Source: Deltaproteobacteria bacterium
Lineage (GTDB): Bacteria; Myxococcota_A; Polyangia; Polyangiales; Polyangiaceae
Length of the DNA stretch: 55,286 bases
Reading direction: 5' to 3'
NCBI GenBank assembly: GCA_016209145.1
Contig: JACQWT010000394.1
Location: forward strand, 1 to 55,286
Shown: positions 1,463 through 55,286 of the stretch, in pieces
Position numbering within the stretch: the first letter of the stretch is position 1
Layout of the letters: each line of letters begins with the position of its first letter
The notes under the pieces: model-generated
Told to the model about the DNA's origin: nothing
Databases searched by the model: none
Seen by the model: only the letters and a program-made list of their open reading frames with translations
Translations under genes and position numbers: made by a program

Positions 1463-2457
1463 ACGTCCACCACCTCGATGCGCGCCACATCGTGCTCGCC
1501 CAGGCCGAGCCTGGCGGCGGTGGCAATCCACTTCGGCTCCCGCCGCTCTGCGCCGAGCGACGGCAAGCCGATCTCCGCCCGGCGCTCCTCGATCGCGCGC
1601 CAGCAGACGGCGTCGATCGCCACCGGATCGGTGGAGCACAACACGCCGCTCCAGGGCCAGGCCCAGCGCGGGGAGCGCGCCGGGCCGCCGTGGCACTGCC
1701 CCACCAGGCCGTCTACCAGTGTGAGCCGCAGCTTGTCGCGGATGAGCGGGAAGGCGGCGAGATGGGCCACGTACGGATTGCAGCCGCCGCCGTGGTGCTT
1801 GTTCGGGTTGTGGATCGCGCCGTACCAGTTCTTCAGGCCCGCCGAGATGCCGGCCAGATCGTGGTCCTTTAGCACCGCGACGTTGATCAGGGCCGTGAGC
1901 TCGCTTGTGAGCAGCCGGGCGAAGCACGATCCGCCCGCGCCCCACTCCAGCGGCGTCCAGTCGTAGTCCTCGTTCGTGCCCAGGCAGCGCACGCCCGGGC
2001 CGTCGCGGTTGAGGGCGAAGCCGGCCCCGCTGAGCTCTCGGTCGGTGCGATCCCAGATGACGACGTTGCGCGCCGCCACGCCGGCCTCTTGCAGCCACCC
2101 GGCGAGCCGCAGCACGAGCTCGGGGTGAGGTGAGAGCCCGCGGCCGGCGATGGTGTTGACCTTGATGCCGACCACGTCGGCAGGCCGGAAGAGGCGGCGC
2201 AGAGCCTCGACCGGGCCCTTGGCGCCGCCAGCGCGCGTCAGGGCGGCACCGAGCAGGTCGGCGAGCTTGCCCGCGTCCACGGCGCCCGAGGCGGGATCGA
2301 TCGCGCCCGGCCGCCGCGCCCGCACGACCACCGGCCGGGCTGGCGCCCCGGCAGCTTCCGCCCGGGTGCCGCCGGGCCCGAGGCGCCCCGCGGTTGCCAG
2401 AGCGGCCACTCCGGCCAGGCCCTGGAGCATGCGGCGGCGGGTGCGTCGGCGAGCCAT
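1459..2457 (-). CDS. DUF362 domain-containing protein, Tat signal
   Basis: MARRRTRRRMLQGLAGVAALATAG signal; DVVGIKVNTIAGRGLSPHPELV; stop/start overlap with the radical SAM gene. Confidence 0.85.
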   Translation of the reverse strand: MARRRTRRRMLQGLAGVAALATAGRLGPGGTRAEAAGAPARPVVVRARRPGAIDPASGAVDAGKLADLLGAALTRAGGAKGPVEALRRLFRPADVVGIKVNTIAGRGLSPHPELVLRLAGWLQEAGVAARNVVIWDRTDRELSGAGFALNRDGPGVRCLGTNEDYDWTPLEWGAGGSCFARLLTSELTALINVAVLKDHDLAGISAGLKNWYGAIHNPNKHHGGGCNPYVAHLAAFPLIRDKLRLTLVDGLVGQCHGGPARSPRWAWPWSGVLCSTDPVAIDAVCWRAIEERRAEIGLPSLGAERREPKWIATAARLGLGEHDVARIEVVDV

Positions 2458-2642
2458 TGTCTACCTCGTTCGACTGGCGTCCACGTCGGCGATGGAGAAG
2501 CCGGCGAAGCCGCTGTGATGCGATGGGCCAACCACGACGACGCGCGCGAGGTCGCCCTTGTGACAAGCATAGGCGATGGCCGGCCGGCGCGCGACTCGCG
2601 TCACGGATGGCACTGCTGTGCGCGCCTCGCCCGGTTGCGGCC

Positions 2643-3167
2643 CTACGGCCGGATCTCCCCCGCGCCCAGGGCCCGATCCAGTCGCCGTGCCGCCGCGAGC
2701 AGGGTCCCGGCCGGCGCGGGCGTGTCGGCGATCAGGCGCACGTACGCCGCGCCGCGCCGAAAAAAGACGGCCTGCGCGCTCGCCCAGCCCTCGTCGCCAG
2801 GGCCACCCGGCGTGCGCTCGGTCCCGGCGTCGCGCTCCAGGGCGAGGCGGGCGCCGCCCAAGCCGGCAAACGCCAGCACCTCGATGTCGGCGGGCGGCTG
2901 CTCGGCGCGCCAGTAGAGCAGGCGGCGGCAGCCCGTGCGGAGCAGCAGCTCGGCGGCGCCGTCCACGCGCTCGTGCAGTCGCTCGGCCGGGTAGTCGGCC
3001 TGCGGCGCCGGGTAGCCCGCCGTCCGGGCGGCGCTCGCCGGGGCGGACGGCGGTGCCGGCACGGACGCCGGGCGCAGGACACCCCGGCCAAGCCACGCGG
3101 CAAGCGCGGCGAGCACGCCGAGCAGGAGCACGGCCATTGCCCGAAACGGCAGCCGCGTGCGCGTCAT
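2643..3167 (-). CDS. DUF6599-like secreted/membrane-anchored protein
   Basis: MTRTRLPFRAMAVLLLGVLAALAAWLG anchor, then YPAERLHERVDGAAELLLRTGCRRLLYWRA; overlaps upstream gene by 4 bp. Confidence 0.6.
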   Translation of the reverse strand: MTRTRLPFRAMAVLLLGVLAALAAWLGRGVLRPASVPAPPSAPASAARTAGYPAPQADYPAERLHERVDGAAELLLRTGCRRLLYWRAEQPPADIEVLAFAGLGGARLALERDAGTERTPGGPGDEGWASAQAVFFRRGAAYVRLIADTPAPAGTLLAAARRLDRALGAGEIRP

Positions 3168-4159
3168 GACAAGCACCCGACCACCAGCGCGCCCACCAGG
3201 GCCACGATCGCGAGCAGCACGGCCGCGACCACGAGCAGGATCTTGGCGACCGACAGGGGCGCCTTGCCGAGCACGCAGCGCGCATCCTGGCCGTGCACGA
3301 TCGCGCGGTACAGGCCGCCGCCGTAGCGGTAGGCGAGCACGTACGTAGGCAGCGCCACGCGCCTCGTCTGCATGTCCTCGAGCAACGCGGCCACGTGCAC
3401 GTTGCGGAAGCTCGATCCCGGGATCGCGCCCTGCTGCAGCGCGGCGGCGGCCGTCGCCAGGATCGCCTCCACGATGGTGCGCCGTGCCGCCGAGCGCTGC
3501 ACGTCGAACTGCTCCAGCACCGCGCCCGCGGGCCCGATCCTCTCCGCGGGCTGCTGCCCCACCGGCAGGGCCGAACCGAGCTGAAAGCACGGGGCAAGGC
3601 GCGCGGCCTCGTCGGGCCCGAGGCCCCGGGAGGCGGAAACGAGCAGCCCCCTTAGCGGCAGGTGCGCCTGGCCGGCGTGCGGCGCCCAGGCCGCGCGCTG
3701 GGCGCCGGCGTTCGAGTCGGCCGTCCAGCTCACGAGCGCGCTCGCGTCCACGATCCACGCCGCCCACCAGATGGGGTGCAGGCCGGCAAGCGTCGCGCTC
3801 GTCGCCAGGTCGCCCGGCCGGAAGAAGCCGAGTGAGCCGAGCCACTGGCGCAGGGCGGCCTGCGCCAGCTCCGGCGCAACGGCGAATGGCAAGATCCAGT
3901 CGGCCTGGTCGACCGGATCCACGGGCTGCTCGATCCGCATCACCGAGGCGCAGAAACGGCACAGGGGCGCCTGTGCCTCGGCCGAGTACGACACGGCCGC
4001 GCCGCACTGGGTGCAACGCAGGATCTGCACGCTCCGTTGCACGGCCGGCCCGCTCGGGGCCGGGCAGGCCAGACCGCAGATGGCGCAGCGCAGATCCCCC
4101 GGCTCCAGGGGCCCGCGACAGCGCAGGCACGGCGCGCTCTGGGGCGCTCCCGCGCTCAT
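3164..4159 (-). CDS. zinc-ribbon protein with C-terminal transmembrane segment
   Basis: CLRCRGPLEPGDLRCAIC and CTQCGAAVSYSAEAQAPLCRFC; C-term KAPLSVAKILLVVAAVLLAIVALVGALVV. Confidence 0.75.
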   Translation of the reverse strand: MSAGAPQSAPCLRCRGPLEPGDLRCAICGLACPAPSGPAVQRSVQILRCTQCGAAVSYSAEAQAPLCRFCASVMRIEQPVDPVDQADWILPFAVAPELAQAALRQWLGSLGFFRPGDLATSATLAGLHPIWWAAWIVDASALVSWTADSNAGAQRAAWAPHAGQAHLPLRGLLVSASRGLGPDEAARLAPCFQLGSALPVGQQPAERIGPAGAVLEQFDVQRSAARRTIVEAILATAAAALQQGAIPGSSFRNVHVAALLEDMQTRRVALPTYVLAYRYGGGLYRAIVHGQDARCVLGKAPLSVAKILLVVAAVLLAIVALVGALVVGCLS

Positions 4160-26190: not shown

Positions 26191-28275
26191 ATGCCAGTGC
26201 GGAACAGAAGTCTGCTGCTGAACGATGTAACTAGCGGAAATAATAGGAGATTGCCCCCCGGCGACCTCGGGATCAGCGCCGAGCCGGTCAGAACCCGTGG
26301 CTCGTGCCGGCTGAGCGCCGCTCTTGCTCCCGCATCGTGCACCCTTGTGCTGTGCCTGGCTTCCGGGTGCGGAAGCGAGGAGCTGGCATATCCTTCCGAC
26401 CCTCCTGTCGCCGCCTGTCGCTCGCCTATGGAGATGGCCGGGCGGCTGCGAAGGTGATGCCCACCGGAGTGATCTCCGAGGCGCAGTACCCGGGCGACGA
26501 CGAGTCCTTCTGGTACAAGACCTTCTGCCCGAACTGCCCGGATCCGTACTCCGCGGTGATGGTGCTGCCGCACGACCCGCAGGTGTACTACGGGACCGGC
26601 GGCGGGCTCGTGCCGGCGGTCGATCCGGCCGCCGGCACGCGCGAGCTTCTGGCGCAGTTCGCCAGGGGCGAGCGCGTTTTCGTGCCAGCGGGCGAGCCGA
26701 TCGAGCGGCTGGCGCAGGCCAGCCTACCAGGCGACAAGCTGCTGCGCGGCGTCTCCTTGGATCCGAGTACGCCGTCGGTGGACCAGCAGCTCGCCAGCGG
26801 CTCGGCCGACGCCAGCCCACAGCTCTACGGGGTGCCTCCGTGCGTCATCTGCTCGCCGCTGCTGCGCGGCAACGAAGGGCTGGCGCTGAGCGGGGGGCTC
26901 GGCCGGCTGTTCGTCATCGGCGGGACCAAGGACGGAACGCTGTCTGGCGAGCCGAACGGCTCGGCCTGGGTCCTCGACGCGGAGAGCAACGAGTGGCAGG
27001 AGCTGGCCCTCGACCCGGCGGCGCGGCCGGGGGCAGTGCTCGCCGCGACCTTCCGGTTCCAGGACTTGGCGGTCTACCTGGTCGACCAGATCGCCGAGCG
27101 CGTCTCGCTCCGGCGCTGGCGGCCGCACGGCGCCCTGGAGTACTTGGCTCAGCTTCCGAGCGACTGGGCCGCGCTCGAGCGCAGGTGGCTGGTGGCCTCG
27201 GGCGACGGCGATCTGCTGTTCGCGGCCTCCCGTGCCAAGGGCGCCGGCTCCGACAGCTCCTTGTTGGCGCGCTTCTCGTTCGAGCGGAGCGGGAAGCTGT
27301 TGTTGTCCGGACTCGACCGCCGTGACGCGCGGGTGCTCGGCGCGCCCATCGTCGGGCCCGCCGCTCTGACGCTGGGCGTCCCGGATCCGGCAGGCCCGCG
27401 GCTGGTGCAATATGCGCAGCCGGTGGTTCGGGACACGCACGTGCCCAGGTTCATCGGCTCCTTCTACAGCTACGGCCCCGAGCTGGAGCCCTACGAGCAC
27501 CCGTTCGCCGTGGCCGACGACGTCCCGCAAGGCCAAGTCTTCGTCAGCGATACGCACCACGTGCGCGTGTGCCGCTTCGAGCACGACGGGACCAGCCCGC
27601 TGTGTTGGGGCTCGCAGTGCAACCTCTACGATGGCAACATCGGCTTCCCGCCCGGCTACGGCTGCGACCTGAGCGCGCCCGGAGCCAAAGAGCCCGGCGA
27701 CGGACAGTTCGCCAAGCTCGGGTACGGCCCCGACCTGTGGAGGCTCGACTTCGACCCGGTCGCCAAGAGGCTGTTCGTGGTCGATAGCTACAACGGCCGG
27801 ATACAGGCATTCGCCCCGGACGGCACCTTCCTGTTCAAGTTCGGCACGCCCGGTCACGGCCCGGGTCAGTTCAGGTGGGAGATGGACGTGGCCGTGGACC
27901 GCCGCAACGGCAAGCTCGTGGTGGCCGACACCAACTCGGATCGCATTCAGGTGTTCTTCGACCCCGAGCACAACCCCCTGCCCGAGCTGGTGTTCGGCTC
28001 GAGCTGCGACCTGTACCACCGCTATACTCCCGAGGATGACCCGAGCTGCCAGGTGCACCCTGTCACGGGTGAGCTGGGCGACGGGCAGTTCTACCAGCCG
28101 AACGGCGTGGCGGTGGACGCGCAGGGGCGCATCTGGGTGGTGGACACGGTGAACTGGCGCGTGCAGGTGTTCGACGAGGCGGGCCAGTTCCTGTTCAAGT
28201 TCGGCGCGCACGGCCCGGGCCCGGGCAAGCTCGAGTACCCGGTGGGCCTCGGCATCGACGGCGCGGGCAGCAGGC
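26191..28275 (+). pseudogene. NHL-repeat lipoprotein, frameshifted near 5' end and truncated at 3' end
   Basis: AAGGAG RBS before ATG 26191; LASGCGSEEL lipobox in frame 1, body from MPTGVISEAQYPGDDESF in frame 3; NHL units RLFVVDSYNGRIQAFAPDGTFLFKFG, LVVADTNSDRIQVF, IWVVDTVNWRVQVFDEAGQFLFKFG. Confidence 0.7.
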
Positions 28276-28281
28276 GCGGGT

Positions 28282-28309
28282 GCAAGCCCGAGCGCCACGG
28301 CGCCGATCT
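28282..28309 (+). repeat. 28-bp dispersed repeat, copy 2
   Basis: GCAAGCCCGAGCGCCACGGCGCCGATCT at the point where NHL homology stops. Confidence 0.8.
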
Positions 28310-28342
28310 AGATCTTTCCCGCGCCCGGTGCGTCGCAACGGC

Positions 28343-29011
28343 ATGCGCACGCCCTTGGCCCTGCTCCGCCTCGCCGCCTTCGCCCTGCTCCTGCTCGCCC
28401 CCGGCCTCGCCGCGGCCGGGCCGGTCGCGCCGCTTCCGTCCCCGGCGGGCGGCAAAAGCGCCCTCGCGGTGCGCATCGTCGGCTACACGGGCGGCGTCAA
28501 CGGCGAGATGGTCGTGGAGATCCGGAACACCGGGTCCAAGGCCGAGGTCTTCGGCGCCCAGGGGCTGTACTTCGTGCCGGACGGCAACCCCGAGGTGGCG
28601 CCGCAGCGCCTGGGCGCAGCCGGGCCCTTCCGGCTCCAGGACGACGCCGCGGGGAGTGCTCGGGACAAGCTCGCGCTCGCGCCCCGGGCCACGGCCCAGG
28701 TCCGGCTGCAAGTATTCTGCATCGACTCGCACCGATCGGCCCCCACGGCGCAGCACTCCTTCCACCTTGGCAAGGAGCGGCTGCCCCGCGAGCTGCGTGC
28801 GCAGATCGAGTCCAGGGCGAAAGCCGCGCTCGGCGCGCACGGGGGCAGCATGCCCGCGGCCAAGGCCGCCATCCAGTCGGAGGTGTGGCACGCGCGCGAC
28901 AGCAAGTGGATCCGGCTCGACGGCGAGCGCCGGCACGAGAAGGGCGGCCCGGAGCTACCGTTCCAAGAGCGGCTGCGCCGCGAACGCCGGCCGCTGCCAC
29001 GCCAGCAGTGA
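28343..29011 (+). CDS. secreted protein of unknown function
   Basis: MRTPLALLRLAAFALLLLAPGLAAAGP signal peptide. Confidence 0.7.
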   Translation: MRTPLALLRLAAFALLLLAPGLAAAGPVAPLPSPAGGKSALAVRIVGYTGGVNGEMVVEIRNTGSKAEVFGAQGLYFVPDGNPEVAPQRLGAAGPFRLQDDAAGSARDKLALAPRATAQVRLQVFCIDSHRSAPTAQHSFHLGKERLPRELRAQIESRAKAALGAHGGSMPAAKAAIQSEVWHARDSKWIRLDGERRHEKGGPELPFQERLRRERRPLPRQQ

Positions 29012-45481: not shown

Positions 45482-46228
45482 CTAGTCCTGGTTGGCCCCA
45501 AGAGACGCCTCAAGAGCAGCGATCACCTCGGCGTCGGCAGGGCTCGGCCGCCCCTCGGCGTCGAAGCTGAGGAACTGCCCATGCCGCTGGATGCCCTTGA
45601 CGAGGCACTGCCTATCAAGCGGCACCGCCCATTCGTCACACATCAGTTCGAACTGATCGGCGTACTCCTCCGCACAACCAGGGTCACGTTCGATCTCGTG
45701 ATACTCGAGCGGCTTCGTTCCAGGCGACAAGGCATGCCTAGCCTCTACGGTCACGTGCTTGCGATCCCCAACCAAAAAGTGTTGGAAACGCCAGCTCGGC
45801 ACGCCGTCCCCCGGCTCCACGCACTGCACGTCGCTACGATGGGCGTTGCTGATGAGGAAGGCTTCGACGTGCGGGTTTCGAGTGATGGCCTTCAACATGG
45901 CCGTGGCGCGCACGTCGACGTCTGGTCCGAAGAGGAATTGGACCCGAGCCTTCGAGGCGGCGATCTCCCGGGCAAACTCCGGGTGATCCCCGAGTCCCCC
46001 GTGCAGGCAACCGCTGAAGATCAGAGCTTCCTCGTTCGTATGCTTGAGGAGGTTGTCACGGAGCAATCCCTCAAGTCCTACGACACGCCGACGGGTTGGC
46101 CAAGGCAGTTGCCCCTTGATGAGGTCGCGGATGACCCACGCGACCATCATCAAGGACACGATGATCCCGAAGATCAGTGCAAATTCGGTCATGGCATCGG
46201 CCGTCCACATCGGTTGCCTTCCAAGCAC
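45482..46228 (-). CDS. membrane-anchored protein, weakly PLD-like
   Basis: N-term TM FALIFGIIVSLMMVAWVIRDLI; ARVQFLFGPDVDVRATAMLKAI and WRFQHFLVGDRKHVTVEARH. Confidence 0.55.
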   Translation of the reverse strand: MLGRQPMWTADAMTEFALIFGIIVSLMMVAWVIRDLIKGQLPWPTRRRVVGLEGLLRDNLLKHTNEEALIFSGCLHGGLGDHPEFAREIAASKARVQFLFGPDVDVRATAMLKAITRNPHVEAFLISNAHRSDVQCVEPGDGVPSWRFQHFLVGDRKHVTVEARHALSPGTKPLEYHEIERDPGCAEEYADQFELMCDEWAVPLDRQCLVKGIQRHGQFLSFDAEGRPSPADAEVIAALEASLGANQD

Positions 46229-46465
46229 AACCGGGACCGTCCGTCAAGTCCTTGCTGCTCCTCGGCAGCGGCGGGGCGTCTCGGGAACTGGGCCGGCTGC
46301 GCGCCCGCGACGCCGGCGAGCCGGGGGTACTCCCGGAACGCGACGAGCTCGAAGCGCGTGCGGATCTTGCCGGCCTCGTGACCCTCCCGCGGCCACACGT
46401 AGGTCGTCTCGCGGTACCCGTCCTCGATCTGCGCGCGGTGCGCAGACCGCGGCGCTCTCCAGTCG

Positions 46466-46789
46466 GTGGACGGGGCGTTCCGCGAGCTGCTCGCGGCCTA
46501 CGAGGACGCGGGCAAGAGCGTGTTCGCCTGGGCGCTCGCCAACCCGTCGCGCTCCGGGCCACGCTGCGTCGCGTTTCGCACCCCGCGGGGCGAGGCGCGG
46601 CTTGCGGCCATCGACGGCCGGCGGGTGAAGGCCGCCGGAAGGCTGGATCCGTCGAGCGGAACCGTGGAGCTGCTCACCTGCTATCGGGTGGATCGCAACC
46701 GGCCGCTCAAGTCGCACTGGCTCGAACTGTGCCGGGAGCGGGCCGGCCACAAGCGGATCGGGACGGCCATCGAGATCGGACTCGCGTGA
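46466..46789 (+). CDS. hypothetical protein
   Basis: coherent ORF FRELLAAYEDAGKSVFAWALANPSRSGPRCVAFRTPRGEARLAAIDGRRV. Confidence 0.45.
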   Translation: MDGAFRELLAAYEDAGKSVFAWALANPSRSGPRCVAFRTPRGEARLAAIDGRRVKAAGRLDPSSGTVELLTCYRVDRNRPLKSHWLELCRERAGHKRIGTAIEIGLA

Positions 46790-46845
46790 GCGGGACGGCC
46801 AACGGACACGGCAACCGCCGGAGCACTTGGGAGAGGACCTGGGAG

Positions 46846-48020
46846 ATGTGGCAACCGGACGACACGCTGCTCGCCGAGACCAGGGCGACCCTTGACGAGC
46901 AGCTCCGCAGCCTGTCGCAGGCCGACTGCCCGCCCGGCCCGGCGGCCCGCGAGGCGGCGCGGGGCGCCCTCGAGGCCGCCGGCACGCTTGCGTTTCTCGG
47001 TCTGGCGGACGAGGCGCAGCGCGCGCTGGCAGGAGCCGGCGTGCCGTTCGCGCGCGCGGCGCGGGAGCTGGTCGAGGGCCTCGACTCCGAGCCGCTCGAC
47101 CGGGCGCTCGGCGAGCTGCTCGAGCTCGCCCCCGAGCTCCAGCTCGCGTCGGACGACGAGCTCCCGGAGATCGAGGAGCGGATCGTGGACGCGCTCGGCG
47201 CGCGCGATGCGATGGAGCTCCTGCTCGCGGGCGCGGGCCTGATGCCGGGCGCCGCGCCCGCGCTCGGGGCCGACATCGAGTCCTCGATCGTGGCGTTCGA
47301 CGAGCTGCTGGCGCGCTCTGGCGGCTCGTGCCGCTCGGCTCGCGGCGCGCCGCCCGAGCGGCGTGGGCCGCGCCCGCGATGCGGCCGCGACTGTGGTGGT
47401 GGCACCGGGGCTCGGACCTGCCCCACACGGCGCTGTCCGATCTCGGCACGGCCGCGCAGCTCATCCGCATCTTCCCCGAGGCAAGGGAGGAGCTCGCGAG
47501 GCTGGTGCAGGCCGAGCGCGACCTCGATGCCCTCGTAAGGACGCCGCCGCGCGTGGCGACGGGCGGCGAGAAGGCAGGCCATGTGATCGCGCTGGTCGAG
47601 CTCGCGCTCCGCGACCTGCCCGCCAACGACCGCGGGCGCTTCGCCCGGCCTCTGCCCGTGCCCGAGCACCAGCCCCAGTTTGCAGCCGCGGCCCCCCAGA
47701 GCGCCGGGCCCATGACGGCGGAGTGGAGGGCGCTTGCAGGCAAGTGGTACGCCGAGATCGAGTGGCCTGCGCCTCCGGACGACGCGGCCGAGCGCGAGGT
47801 GGTGCTCGTGGTCTACGACGCGCCTGAGGATGCGGTGAGCGCGGTGCTGCTCGGCCTGGTCCGCACGCTCGACGGAAGCGGGACCCGGCGCCGGGCGCGC
47901 TTCCGGATCGGAGAGCTCCGCGCCCGGCGCGCGCAGGAGCTTGGCGGCCTCGTGCTTCTCGTGGGCGATCCGCCGTACGTCGAGCTCGGCGCGCTCCATG
48001 ACAAGGCCGTGCCGGGTTGA
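46846..48020 (+). pseudogene. hypothetical protein upstream of Lon-like gene, apparent frameshift near 47311
   Basis: MWQPDDTLLAETRATLDEQLRSL..SSIVAFDELLAR in one frame continuing as ALWRLVPLGSRRAARAAWAAPAMRPRLWWWHRGSDLPHTALSDLG in another. Confidence 0.5.
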
Positions 48021-48030
48021 GGGCGCTCTG

Positions 48031-48864
48031 GTGTCCAAGACCATCACGCGAGAGAGGTTGTGCCAACGGAGTTCCGGGGGATTGCGCGAGCTCGCCGACT
48101 GGCTCGGCCAAGCGCTCGCGGGCTACTGGCTCAAGACCGAGCTCCGTACCGAGCTTGGGATCGCGACGCCGAAGCCGTGGGCAGGGCGGCACGGTGCGGC
48201 GGTGGCGCTCTTCGCGCCGACGGAGCAGGTGGATGGTCTCGCGGAAGGGCTCCCGCTACCAATGCAATGGCGACGAGAAGCCGCCGACTCCGACATGGTC
48301 CCGGCCGGGCTGAGCACCGTCGCCGAAAGCGTCCGCCGGGAGCTCGGGATCGATGGCTGGGGCCTCGCGCTCGCCCGCGACCTCGACGACTACGACCTCT
48401 CCGAGCTGCCGCTTGCCGCGGAGTCGGCGTGGGCGGCGCTCGCTGCGGCGCTCGTGGTGGCTTGCGAGGGCGGCGCGGTGCGGCCGTGGGTATTCGCGAC
48501 CGGAGCGTGGGACGGTCACGGGATCGCGCGCGTAGAGCACATCAAGGCGAAGCTCGCGGCAGTGCGGAGCCTCGGCTGGGCGCCCGAGGGGCAGCGTCCC
48601 GTGCTGTGGGTGCCGGCCGGGAACTACGACGAGGCGCGGGCGGCTATCACGGACGAGGTCGAGCTGAAGTCCTATCCCGCGGGCGAGACGAAGGCTCGCC
48701 AAGCGCTCAGCGAGCACTTGTACAGCATCGAGGTGCCCCCGACCACGGACGAGCCGCTCGCGCGGCGGCGTGACTACGCCAATCGACCGTACTCTGCCGT
48801 TCCCGGTGTTCCGCGATGGCCGCGCGCTGTGGTTGCCGTTCGGAGGGGCAGGGGCTGGCCATGA
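48031..48864 (+). CDS. Lon-like (S16) protease-domain protein
   Basis: AAESAWAALAAALVVACEGGAVRPWVFATGAWDGHGIARVEHIKAKLAAVRSLGWAPEGQRPVLWVPAGNYDEA parallels Lon Ser and Lys motifs. Confidence 0.55.
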   Translation: MSKTITRERLCQRSSGGLRELADWLGQALAGYWLKTELRTELGIATPKPWAGRHGAAVALFAPTEQVDGLAEGLPLPMQWRREAADSDMVPAGLSTVAESVRRELGIDGWGLALARDLDDYDLSELPLAAESAWAALAAALVVACEGGAVRPWVFATGAWDGHGIARVEHIKAKLAAVRSLGWAPEGQRPVLWVPAGNYDEARAAITDEVELKSYPAGETKARQALSEHLYSIEVPPTTDEPLARRRDYANRPYSAVPGVPRWPRAVVAVRRGRGWP

Positions 48865-49713
48865 GTGAAAGGCGTCTGTACGTCCTCGAGGTGCTGACCC
48901 CGGTTCACGTGGGCTCGGGCATGCTGCTCCCGTCGAGCGAGGTTGCGTACGACGAGCGGGAGAACCGAAGCCACGTGCTCGACCTGGACGCAGCCCTGGA
49001 CGCGATCGGTCCTGAGGGCTTCCAGAGTGCCAAGGTCCCAGGGCCGAACGAGCTCCTGGCGCTGCTCCGGCGCCGCGGTGTCGCGCTGGACGCGGTGTGC
49101 TGGGAGTCCCTGAAGGGCCGCTTCACGGCAAGGGATCTGCGCCTGTGTGTGCGCGATGGGCGCGGGTGCCCCATTATCCCGGGCAGCTCCCTCAAGGGCG
49201 CGCTGCGCACGGCGGTGTTGGCGGGGCTCGCCTGGGACGCTGAGCGAGCGACGCGGACCGAGCGGGGTGAGGCAGCCGTGGGCCGCGCGCTGGCGTCGGG
49301 CGCCGCCGGGCCCTTCGAGACCGCCCTGCTCCGCCCCGACCTGCCAGAGCGGGGACAGCAGAGGCTCGACCCGCACCACGACCCTTTCAGGCTGCTCGCT
49401 GTCACTGACGCGACCTTCTCGTGCCGCGCGACACGAGGAACCCGACATCGCGTCCGGCATCCCGCTCCGAGCCGCCCGCGCGGCGGCGCAGACGCCGGCG
49501 GCCCGCATCATGGCGGAGCTCGCGGTGCTCAGGTCGCACGAGCTCGCGGGCCGGCTGAAGGACATCTGGGACCGCGCCTCCAGGCAGTGCGAGGATCCGG
49601 CGGATCGGCGCAAGGCGGCCGAGGCAATCCGAGACCGAATGCGGGAGGCGAACCTGCTCAAGAAGTGGAAGGACAAGGCATGGGTCGCCGAGTTGCTCGC
49701 CGTGCTCTCGTGA
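48861..49713 (+). pseudogene. CRISPR-associated RAMP protein, Csm5-like, apparent frameshift/junction near 49420
   Basis: YVLEVLTPVHVGSGMLLPSSE and CPIIPGSSLKGALRTAVLAGLAWD; C-terminal part AARIMAELAVLRSHELAGRLKDIWDRASRQ..LLKKWKDKAWVAELLAVLS in another frame. Confidence 0.72.
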
Positions 49714-49854
49714 TTCCTGGCACGCCCGCCGCGAAGGCCGGGACGCGGGATTCAAGGGCGGCGCAGAGGGGCGTCTACAGGTGACTGCCCGGTCGGCACG
49801 TAGAGGCCAGCCAAGGCGCGGCCGCCCCCCGGCTGAACGATGGAGGATCAAGAC

Positions 49855-50676
49855 ATGGCTAGCAACGTTCACGTAGTAAGCTGCGGCACGAGCCCCCTCA
49901 GTTGGCTCACGCGCACCGACCTGTGCCTGTCTGACGGCACGCCCTTCAAGGAGTTCGCCCGCAAGCAGGACGATCTCGCGCGCCGCCTCGGCGAGGACCG
50001 GGAGGCGAACGCGCGCGCCGAGCGGGCCGTGCACGACAAGCCGCGCGAGGCGTCGGCGGAGATCCACGCCCTTTGGGAGTACCTCGAGCGGCGCGAGGTC
50101 GACTGGGCCTACCTCGTGACCACCGAGACGCGGGCTTCGCAGTGCGCGGCCGCGTGGATCCGGAGCTACCTCGCGCGCGAGGCGAAGGTGGCCCGGGTCG
50201 ATCTCGGCACCAAGTTCGTGGGCTACGAGGCTTCCGACGACGACGACAACGACAACGGACGCCTGGCGGACTTCGCCGCGCGCCTCCAGTTGCTGCGCGA
50301 TCGCACGATGCGTTTCGTGGAGCAGCGCAAGGCCGCGGGGGATCGCGTCTTCATCGCCGCGCAGGGCGGCTACAAGCCGGAGACGGGCATCATGATGCTG
50401 GTCGGCGCCGACACCGGCACGCCCGTCTACTACCTGCACGAGGAGATGCGCCGGACGGTCACGCTCCCGGTCCTGCGCTACCGCGGCGATGTCGGCTGGC
50501 TGCGCGAGCTGATTGGTGAGGGCGCGTCCGGTCCCGCGCTCGCGGAGCTCAAGCGGGAACATGGTGCCGAGCTCGAGGAGGCCATTCGCTGCTACGCCGT
50601 CGAGGCTCGACGCGACGACACCGGGGCCGTGGTGCGCGCGAAGCTCACCGCCTACGGCAAGTCGCTCGTGCCCTAG
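49855..50676 (+). CDS. CRISPR-associated CARF-type protein, APE2256/Csm6-ring-nuclease-like family
   Basis: VHVVSCGTSPLSWL..DRVFIAAQGGYKPETGIMMLVGADTGTPVYYLHEEMRRTVTLP; GGAGG RBS at 49842. Confidence 0.72.
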   Translation: MASNVHVVSCGTSPLSWLTRTDLCLSDGTPFKEFARKQDDLARRLGEDREANARAERAVHDKPREASAEIHALWEYLERREVDWAYLVTTETRASQCAAAWIRSYLAREAKVARVDLGTKFVGYEASDDDDNDNGRLADFAARLQLLRDRTMRFVEQRKAAGDRVFIAAQGGYKPETGIMMLVGADTGTPVYYLHEEMRRTVTLPVLRYRGDVGWLRELIGEGASGPALAELKREHGAELEEAIRCYAVEARRDDTGAVVRAKLTAYGKSLVP

Positions 50677-51480
50677 AACGCCGGGGCCCACGCGCCCGGC
50701 CCACGCGGCGCGGTCGCTCCCGCCAGCCCCGCCAGCCCCGCGGCCGCCGCCGTCACCGCCCGCCCTGCCGCCTCGTAGCCCCACGCCGTCCTGCGCACTT
50801 GGCCTCCGAGCTCGAGCTCCAGGAGCGCGGCCGAGACGGCGCCCGCGGGCAGGCCGGTCGCCTGGCACAGCCCATCAGTGTGCCAGCCACCGCGGCCGCC
50901 CATGGCCCCCAGCACCGCGCTGGCCTCGGCCGACAACGCTCCCGGCCATGACCCACCTTGGGTCATCGGCCCCGCGCCGCCGGCCAGCGGGTCGACCAGC
51001 AGCACCCCAGCCGCGTCGTAGAACCGCAGCTCGCCGTCGGCGTCGCCCTCGATGCGGAGCTTGCCCTCGTGCAGCAGGGCATGGTGCGTTGAGCACAAGC
51101 AGACGCACCCAGCCCGCGAGTGCTCCCCGCCCAGGGCCTGGGGCCGGATGTGATGCACTTCGACGTAGCGCCGCCGGGTGCAGCCAGGTGCCCGGCAACG
51201 GCACCGGTCCCGCAGCTTGACCGCCCGGCGCACCGCCGCCGGCAACTGTCCGCCACGCTGCACCACCCGGCCATCGGTCTCAAGGTCGCGCACCCGCGCG
51301 CCGCAGCCGAGCCGCGCCGCCGCCTCCGGAGCGAGCTCCACCGCGCCCGCGCCCGTCTCCAGCTCGGTCTGGCCGCACTGCCGGCATTCGTAGAGCACCA
51401 CCGTACGCTCCGGCTCCGCCGCCCCCTCGGCGCCCTCGGCCTGGTGCGCCAGGGCCTCGCGTGCCACCTCTCGCTCGTCA
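50673..51480 (-). pseudogene. HNH endonuclease, 5'-truncated (DUF222/13E12-like C-terminal part)
   Basis: RRAVKLRDRCRCRAPGCTRRRYVEVHHIRPQALGGEHSRAGCVCLCSTHHALLHEG; no credible N-terminus upstream of about 51480. Confidence 0.7.
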
Positions 51481-51507
51481 CGGGCGCGCGGGCGGATCTG
51501 GTGCGCG

Positions 51508-52316
51508 TGAGCGGCGGCGCCGAGCGCGCGTGCCTGGTGGACGACAGCCCCCTGCGGGCGCGCTGGCTCCTCGGCGAGGCGGACCGCGCCTGGCGCAGGT
51601 TCGGCTACGCGGAGGCGGCCGCGCTGCTCGAGCAGTGCCGCCGCCAGGATGCAGCCGTCGACCGGGCCCTGCTCCTGAGCCGCGGCTTCGCGGCCTGGGA
51701 CCGGTTCGACCACGAGGAGGCGTACCAGAAGCTCCGGGAAGCAGCGGGTGGGGGGCTGCCCGAGTGGGTTCTGCCGGCACTCGGCGAGCTGCGGCGCGGC
51801 CGCGAGCAGGCCACCGAGAGGTCGGACGCGTACCGGCTCTGGGATCTGTGGCTCACGGCCTGCCGCCGCGCGGAGGCACAAGCCTACGATGTCGGTGTGC
51901 TCCTGCTCTACCGGTGCCTGGAGGCCATGGCGCAGTGGACCTTGCGCTGGCACCACCACGTCGACACGGGCGACGTGGCGCGCGACGAGGCCGAGCGGGT
52001 CGGCATCGCCGACCTGACCGCCCCCGACCACCACGGGCGGCTCGTCATGTCCATGCACAAGGCATGGAGCGCCGTTGCCCGGCTGGGCGGACCGCTTGCC
52101 GAGGTCGGAGCGAGGACCGACGAGCGCAGGCGGGATTTCGCCGACAGGCGCAACCACTCGCTGCTTGCGCACGGTGAGACGCCCCTTCGCGAGGAGCACT
52201 TCCGCAGCGCCCGCGAGCTCCTGGAGCGCGAGGCCATGGGACACTTCCGCAAGGTGGCGTTCAAGGGTCGCGAGCCGTACCCGCAGCTTCCCACGGCGAT
52301 CCCGCCCGTGCGGTGA
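51508..52316 (+). pseudogene. CRISPR-associated TIGR02710-like protein, HEPN part only (CARF N-terminus missing)
   Basis: RARWLLGEADRAWRRFGYAEAAALLEQC..VLLLYRCLEAMAQWTLRWH..RRDFADRRNHSLLAHGETPL (RN-x4-H HEPN motif). Confidence 0.62.
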
Positions 52317-52426
52317 CGGCCAGTGCCGGCTCGCCGGGCTCCCCCGGGGCGCTCGCCCGGCCGCCTGTCAGGATCCGGGCGCCTGCTGCGTCTCCTCTGT
52401 GGAACAGCAGAGCGGAGGCAGCAAGA

Positions 52427-53748
52427 TGAGCACGAGCGCCGAACCCGTCGCGACCCTCACGGCCGAGTCGCTGCTCGGCACGCTGGCGGCGGCCAAGAAG
52501 CGCCGCGACTGGGAGGCCATCGCCCGGCACGCGGCCGAGGTGCCGGAGCAGCTCGCGGGCGCGTGGGTGCAGGTCGCCGACGAGATCGGCTTCGCCCTCG
52601 GTCAGCTCCGCCGCACCGACGAGGCCGCCGCGCTGTTCGAGCGCGTGTACGTCGTGGCCCCGTCGCGCCGCATCGCCAGCGCGCTCGCCTACGTGTACTA
52701 CGACGCGCTGCTCGGCCGGCGCACGCGCCAGGCCGAGCGCGGGGGCCAGGCGGCCGCGGCCGGGCGCGACCGGGAGGCCGACCGCAAGGCGTTCGCGCGC
52801 TGGATGGGCGAGGCCCTGCGCCTCGAGCCCCGCTCGATCAAGGATCTGTACCGGCTTGGGGTGTTCGAGGCCCAGGTCGAGAGCCGTCATGACAAGCCGG
52901 CGCTGCGCGCGTTCGTTGCGGCCATCGAGAGCTACCGGGCGCTGCCGGCCGACGAGCGCCAGTGGCGCGGCGACCTGCGCAAGCCCTACGTCCGCTCGCT
53001 GTACGCAGGGGCGAGATCCGCGCTGCGCCTGAGCGATCTCGACCGCGCCCGCCGGCTGTCCTTCGACTGCATCCGCGAGGACGAGCAGACGGACCACGTG
53101 GCGCCGGTGCACAAGCTCTACCTCGCCGGCAAGATCTGCGCCGCGCTCGGCCGCAGCGCGGACGCGGAGCGGGCGTATCGCAAGGCCCTGGCGGCCAAGG
53201 GCCCGCCCGAGCGCGACTACGTCCACGCCGCCCTGGCTGCGCTGGCGCTTGCCACGGGCCGCGCCGAGGACGCCGAGCGCTGGATCGAGGCCAACGTGCC
53301 GCCGCATCGGCGCAAGCCCGTGCTGTGGCGGCTGGTGGGCGACGTGAAGGTGGCGCGCGGCCGCGGGCGCGAGGCGCTGCTCGCCTACCAGAACGCGCTG
53401 CGCAAGGACCGGGCCGGCCGCCACCTGACGCTCACGGCGATGGGCGCCCTGGAGCTCGCGGCGGGCAACGCGCAGAAGGCGGCCGAGCACTTCCGCCAGG
53501 CCAACGACTTTCGGCGCCGCAAGTACCTCTCCGAGCACCTTCCCGCGCTCGACGGGCTGGCGACCGCGCTTTGGGCGCTCGGCCGCGACCGGGACGCTGC
53601 CGACGCACGGGCCGCGGCCGAAGGGCTGCGCGAGGGCCGGGCGGGCCGCGGCAGGCCGGGGCCGGGCGGGCTCGCCTCGGGGCGCGCCGTCGAGCCGGCC
53701 AGCGCGGACGACGCGCCCGCCGAGGACGAGGCCGCCGAGCAAGGGTGA
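52427..53748 (+). CDS. TPR-repeat protein, upstream of primase gene
   Basis: LYLAGKICAALGRSADAERAYRKALAAKGP, LVGDVKVARGRGREALLAYQNALRKD. Confidence 0.8.
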
Positions 53749-53771
53749 CAAGCGAGGAGCGGGGACGCGTG

Positions 53772-55286
53772 ATGCCGGCGATGGAAGATCCTCTCGAGGC
53801 GGCGCGCGCGGCGCTCTCCGGCAACGAGCCCGAGCACGTCGCCGAGCTGTGGCGCGAGGCCGATGCCCGGGCGCTCGATCCCGGCCGTCGCTTCGAGTGG
53901 CTGCTGCTGCTGCTCGAGGCCGGCGACGCCGCCACGGCGAGCGCAGCGGCCGGAGCGCTCGCCGGCACCGAGTGGGAGGCGCGGGCCGCCGCCCTGCTCG
54001 AGGCCGGCGAGGCCGATGACACGCCGGCCGGCGCCGAGCCGGCCGAGGACGACGTCGAGGTGGACGAGGTGCTCAGGCTCGCGGCGCCCGACACCGACGC
54101 CGCGCTCGTCGAGCGCTTCCTGCGCTGGTTCGGCGGTCGCAAGGATCTGCACGCGCGCCAGTGGTACGACGAGCGGCGGCGCCGCTCCGGCTACCGCCTG
54201 GTCGAGGAGCCGCTCACGGCCGAGGTCGCCCGCCTGCACCTCGCCGGCCGGCTCACCCTGGGTCAGTACCTGCTCTTCCCCGACGGGAGCTGCGCGTTCG
54301 GCGTCGTCGATCTGGATCTGTCCGCCAGTGCGCTCGCCGAGCTGCGCGCCACGCGCGGCGACGCGGTCCGGCCGGTCGAGCACGGGCCGCTGCGCGACTA
54401 CGCGCTGCGGCTGGTCGAGGCCGCGCGGCGGCTCGGGCTGGGGCTGTTCGCCGAGGACAGCGGCGGCCGTGGCCTGCACCTGTGGCTGTTCTTCGAGCCG
54501 CGGCGGCCGGCGCGCGCGGTCCGCGCGCTGCTCGGGCAGCTCGTAGTAGCCGCCGGGAGCCAACCGCCCGATGTCGCGGTCGAGATCTTCCCCAAGCAGG
54601 ACCGGCCGGGCCCGAAGGGGCTGTCGAGCCTGGTCAAGCTCCCGCTCGGCATCCACCAGGCGACGCTGCGGCGTTGCGCGCTGCTCGACGAGAAGCTCGA
54701 TCCCGTCGAGGATCCCTGGGCGGCGCTCGATCGGCTGCGCGCCGCGGCGCCCGACGTCGTGGACGACGTCCTCGGCCGCCGACTGGTGATCATGCCGACG
54801 CCCTGCCGCTGCCCGAGCTGCCCGCCGTGCCGAGCGCCCGCGGTCTGGCGGAGGCGCTGCGCGCCATCGAGCCCGGCAGGCCCGAGCGGGCGGCGTGCGA
54901 GGCCATGCTCGCGGGCTGCGCCGTGCTCCGGCGCCTGGTCAAGATCGCCTACGCCGAACGGCGTCTGGATCCGGCCCAGGCCCGCGCCGTGGTCTACACG
55001 CTGGGTCTCGTCGGGCCCGCCTGCGCGCTCGCCGACGAGATCTTCGACACGGCCGGGGCGTCACGCAAGGAGCTCGGCCGGGCGCGAGCCGGCCTGCCCT
55101 CGCCCGCCGGGTGCAAGGGGCTGCGCCGGCTTGCCCTGGCCGGGCCCCCCGACTGCCCGTGCCCCGAGCTGAGCGAGGCTCAGCCCTACGCGAGTCCGGC
55201 CCTGTTCGCCGTCGGCGCGGCGCCGCCCTCGCCGCCTGCCTGGGCCCAGTTCGGGCCGTTCCTCGAGGGCGTCACGGATCAGGCCG
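53772..55286 (+). CDS. archaeo-eukaryotic primase-polymerase (CAPP/TOTE-like), frameshift near 54797, runs off window
   Basis: FGVVDLDLS, EDSGGRGLHLWLFFEPRRPARAVRALLG, VEIFPKQDRPGPKGLSSLVKLPLGIHQ; Cys-rich C-term CEAMLAGCAVLRRLVKIAYAERRLDPAQARAVVYTLGLVG..CPCPELSEAQPYASPALF in next frame. Confidence 0.78.

Follow-up and report, generated by a model that had tools for sequence, protein, structure and literature searches.

A likely truncated CARF-Lon protease gene in a type III CRISPR locus with several breaks, and sigma-like genes beside its intact relatives

The window analysed here, a whole contig of 55,286 nucleotides, carries an ORF of 277 amino acids (48031-48864, + strand) directly before a csm5-like gene, which raises the question of whether this ORF encodes a working protease effector or a piece of something larger. 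The original prediction described it as a Lon-like (S16) domain protein, translationally coupled to the csm5-like gene and possibly, as no SAVED domain was recognisable, a protease effector different from CalpL. Codon statistics indicate that the ORF is a real coding frame. Pfam and NCBIfam profile searches of the ORF returned no match; the PADLOC profile CARF_m2--CARF_LON (PDLC01981) matched it with an E-value of 3e-37, aligning residues 21-250 of the query with positions 25-240 of the 408 profile positions. An AlphaFold2 model, built from an alignment with three relatives, reached a pLDDT of 83.6 and a pTM of 0.84, with values below 50 at the last 23 residues (255-277). When this model was compared with the PDB by Foldseek, all 50 of the 50 matches listed were Lon proteases (best E=1.3e-8, probability 1.00), and the TM-score against the Escherichia coli Lon domain was ~0.6 by target length. 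As modelled, the protein has the Lon proteolytic fold. Because of the strong PADLOC match and the exclusively Lon matches among those listed by Foldseek, the predicted Lon catalytic-core motifs are beyond chance; they lie where they had been placed, with the putative catalytic Ser132 and Lys174 at a spacing of 42 residues. In E. coli Lon, the dyad consists of Ser679 and Lys722, 43 residues apart. Both candidate residues are invariant in all six sequences compared, i.e. the window protein and its five intact relatives (L033, L034, L035, L036 and L042); of the two lysines in the motif IKAKLAA, the second one (Lys174) is invariant. We infer that members of the CARF-Lon family would act as proteases.

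The other half of the profile, positions 241-408, is uncovered by the ORF, and this is where the sensor of the family is expected. The relative L033 covers the whole CARF_LON profile (E=1.9e-48), and CARF models match its C-terminal part (residues 280-417, best E 1.5e-13). A phylum-wide search with the CARF_LON profile gave many weak matches at profile positions 105-230, in ORFs of housekeeping-Lon length, and other matches at positions 275-400. Taken together, these positions therefore indicate that the family order is Lon followed by CARF, and a C-terminal CARF indeed follows Lon in all five intact relatives, whereas it is absent in the window protein. The latter tracks the family alignment up to about YANRPYSA and then departs. 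Over 48783-48860, the codon log-odds are -12.4 for the Lon frame, -4.6 for the csm5 frame and +1.0 for the third frame (+f2). Frame +f2 reads LPFPVFRDGRALWLPFGGAGAGHE and ends at a TGA stop (48866-48868) overlapping the csm5 start. The Csm4 protein of L049, from the same taxonomic family, has the C-terminus TEHRIYRDGRTLAWPLARRA, and in a six-frame comparison over 110,472 positions the window tail ranked second in its match to this end. The assignment to csm4 rests on similarity and position, because profile searches with the short tail gave no match; the segment 48783-48868 probably represents the last codons of csm4.

These data change the reading of the junction. The TGA of the Lon ORF (48862-48864) does overlap the ATG of csm5 (48861-48863), as originally noted; the translational coupling drawn from it was not confirmed, since codon statistics reject the Lon frame over the preceding stretch. 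Because the coding signal near 48782 leaves the Lon frame for the csm4-like tail, the ATGA overlap probably arose by chance, out of frame, when the break or fusion occurred, and the gene that originally overlapped csm5 was most likely csm4. Likewise, the ORF has no SAVED match in Pfam, PADLOC and NCBIfam profile searches, as had been proposed, but the different kind of effector suggested on these grounds is not supported: the ORF corresponds to the Lon portion of a CARF-Lon protein, with the sensor missing. We thus consider it likely that the ORF is a truncated CARF-Lon gene and not a working stand-alone effector (Table 1).

Table 1. Positions in the window of the Lon ORF and neighbouring features
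Feature	Position	Strand	Evidence
Upstream gene at the partner position, frame broken at ~47311	46785..48020	+	Codon frame; no family match
Protease portion (Lon, S16) of a CARF-Lon gene, codons 1 to ~251	48031..48782	+	PDLC01981, AlphaFold2, PDB Lon matches, coding frame
Ser132 codon (TCG), putative catalytic serine	48424..48426	+	Invariant in window protein and five relatives
Lys174 codon (AAG), putative catalytic lysine	48550..48552	+	Invariant in window protein and five relatives
Probable csm4 tail, out-of-frame end of the Lon ORF	48783..48868	+ (frame +f2)	Codon statistics, similarity to L049 Csm4
csm5, N-terminal part only	48861..49432	+	TIGR01899 E=4.5e-11, PADLOC Csm5 2.4e-13
CARF protein of the CARF7 / Cas_APE2256 / TIGR02619 kind	49840..50676	+	PF09651 3.2e-23, PADLOC CARF7 1.8e-30
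HNH and DprA winged-helix fragment, apparently 5'-truncated	50673..51456	-	PF17782 6.4e-14, weak HNH
TIGR02710 / Csx1-Csm6-like CARF-HEPN gene without its N-terminal part	51457..52316	+	TIGR02710 5.5e-30, PF09670 2.5e-14
TPR protein	52393..53748	+	PADLOC TPR 1.8e-50
TPR-linked CRISPR-associated primase-polymerase	53742..55286	+	NF040561 1.5e-47, PF22548 2.5e-34

The gene upstream of the Lon ORF ends at 48020, 10 bp before the Lon start, and its product had been proposed as a cleavable partner. The position fits this proposal; the product of 46846-48020 is not a single ORF, as the coding frame changes at ~47311, and no homology between the gene (46785-48020) and the partner proteins of the relatives was detected. 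This bears on an alternative in which the ORF is a working Lon-only protease, freed from cyclic-nucleotide control and acting on the upstream gene product. The retained fold and dyad residues and the short distance to the upstream gene would agree with such a protease, but the terminal residues of the ORF are out-of-frame and have no predicted structure, the upstream gene is frame-broken, and no close Lon-only relative was found in the relative searches, so that we regard this alternative as very improbable.

The type III setting of the Lon-like gene was borne out by the csm5, CARF, TIGR02710 and primase-polymerase genes downstream, several of which are themselves damaged. Besides the break at ~48782, four further breaks occur within 9 kb of the locus (~47311, ~49432, 51456 and ~54793). 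The csm5 frame break at 49432 leads into a tail (49433-49713), the TIGR02710 match of the CARF-HEPN gene begins at profile position 98, and the primase-polymerase gene contains the break at ~54793 and runs off the contig end. Whole-genome searches of the assembly (7.9 Mb in 596 contigs, 92% complete, with 8.1% contamination) found no Cas10 palm domain, Csm3 or intact Csm4. The one weak Csm1 match (21.5 bits) falls in a gene that resembles an HD-domain tRNA nucleotidyltransferase. The locus is most likely a decayed remnant, which is the simplest reading; the main rival is a misassembly, in which fragments of separate CRISPR loci were put together in one contig; an intact CARF-Lon gene may then exist in the real genome. 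The contamination, the number of contigs and the clustering of several breaks near the contig end would be in line with such an artefact; however, neither a second CARF-Lon match nor the missing Cas pieces were found elsewhere in the assembled genome, and the rest of the contig reads mostly as intact genes, with a few frame breaks flagged in the other 46 kb. We rate misassembly as rather unlikely and infer decay instead. Locus genes that were not found may be unassembled, given the 92% completeness and a contig that ends inside the locus.

Some details of the contig may be added. At 51456, the HNH/DprA fragment on the - strand meets the N-truncated TIGR02710 gene, and the junction has the appearance of a rearrangement within the locus. 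Outside the CRISPR region, a long gene (26450-28956, + strand) has a possible frame break at ~28335. Two ORFs directly preceding the CRISPR region (45485-46246, - strand, and 46403-46789, + strand) have no Pfam match and are not sigma-like.

The value of the window ORF lies in the arrangement to which it points in its intact relatives. The named relatives are Myxococcota or 'Deltaproteobacteria' MAGs, and four of the five intact loci (L034, L035, L036 and L042; raw count) have a sigma-like gene close upstream of the CARF-Lon gene on the same strand. TIGR02937 matched the sigma-like genes of L034 (E=2.4e-6), L035 (7e-5) and L036 (1.8e-3), and NF058625 matched that of L042 (2.2e-6); the type III-E CRISPR sigma model NF041236 also matched L034 (5.8e-6) and L042 (5e-5). 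These ECF-type sigma matches are all below curated cut-offs, yet a sigma model was the top match in each of the four cases, and the partner and CARF-Lon proteins run in parallel gave no sigma matches. HMM comparison among the sigma-like proteins was not significant, and the sigma assignment therefore rests on NCBIfam. In L033, the gene downstream of CARF-Lon had no significant sigma match. Between the sigma-like gene and CARF-Lon lies an uncharacterised protein, here called the partner, without a convincing family match. Among the partners, only those of L034 and L035 are detectably related (E 6.5e-5), and the structure prediction for a partner protein was of low confidence (pLDDT 35.5). A shared C-terminal domain of the partners appeared plausible by eye and was discarded, as in leave-one-out HMM searches the omitted partner was missed every time.

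The search for relatives extended beyond these loci. A genome scan with a second alignment recovered only three already-known loci, the first alignment being too diverse for a scan. Viral contigs scanned with the window protein and alignment A3, and plasmids searched with three CARF-Lon proteins, yielded no relatives. A weak match in G039 (E 7.9e-4) was rejected after local tblastn reached an E-value of 0.3 at best, and L043 (G489) turned out to encode CARF but no Lon domain.

The arrangement resembles Calp, in which cA4 activates the SAVED-Lon protease CalpL, which cuts the anti-sigma factor CalpT and leads to release of the sigma factor CalpS (PMC11417357; PMC11229360). In an intact system, Cas10 would sense foreign RNA and make cyclic oligoadenylate, which would bind the C-terminal CARF of the intact CARF-Lon protein and switch on the N-terminal Lon domain (Ser132/Lys174). 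By analogy with Calp, the activated protease could then cut the protein encoded upstream, the likeliest target judging from the neighbours of intact relatives, and this cleavage would free the ECF-like sigma factor. Cyclic-oligoadenylate control, cleavage of the partner and sigma release by CARF-Lon may thus form successive steps, and we give such a Calp-like mechanism in the intact relatives an even chance. Equally balanced is the proposal that the intact CARF-Lon protein, the fast-evolving partner and the ECF-like sigma factor constitute a three-part alarm module, a CARF counterpart of Calp of which the window holds a decayed copy. In the window genome this chain is broken, with the CARF gone, csm4 reduced to a tail, Cas10 not found and no sigma gene near the Lon ORF in the window.

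Alternatively, intact CARF-Lon proteins could degrade host proteins to stop growth, with the sigma-like genes being mere neighbours. The single review naming CARF-Lon in the literature searched speculated that the protease cleaves host proteins (PMC9704534), and the sigma scores below curated cut-offs and the lack of detectable relationship among most partners also leave room for this role; against it stand the recurrent position of the sigma-like gene, with an uncharacterised protein in between, and the action of the related CalpL through a sigma factor. We consider host-protein degradation plausible at somewhat less than even chances. The sigma-like neighbours offer a testable alternative to it, namely that infection is answered by switching on a gene set, and, if this is true, CARF and SAVED sensors have each been joined to Lon proteases controlling sigma factors.

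CARF-Lon effectors are a predicted family, already known by prediction, and a classification published in 2025 names Lon-family effectors but gives no particulars (PMC12669027); the literature searched contained no report of a link between CARF-Lon and sigma factors, and an earlier mention is possible. The window ORF is a truncated member of this family: it shares the Lon domain match, the conserved serine and lysine and the type III CRISPR neighbourhood, and differs by the missing C-terminal CARF. Its relatives share with CalpL an N-terminal Lon domain, a C-terminal cyclic-oligoadenylate sensor and a nearby sigma-like gene, but they carry CARF instead of SAVED, their partner is at most a candidate anti-sigma factor, and the window has neither the sensor nor the sigma gene. 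With the ATP-dependent LonA and LonB, the window ORF has the proteolytic-domain fold and the Ser-Lys pair in common, whereas it lacks an AAA+ ATPase domain and lies in another genomic setting. The type III-E module (TPR-CHAT Csx29 and an RpoE-like sigma factor) likewise combines a protease under CRISPR control with a sigma factor encoded nearby, and two sigma-like genes of the relatives match its sigma model below cut-off as given above; in contrast, the Csx29 protease is caspase-like and controlled by the effector complex itself.

The neighbourhoods of the intact relatives show further variation. In L036, other ORFs may intervene between the sigma-like gene and CARF-Lon. Upstream of the sigma-like gene, L034 (11772-13103, - strand) and L035 (6505-7350, - strand) both encode a DUF3800-like Y(I/V)DESG stretch, for which Pfam gave an E-value of 0.081 in L034 and no match in L035. 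As read from the sequence, L035 also has a Csx1-like CARF-HEPN gene between the partner and CARF-Lon (2400-3900, - strand).
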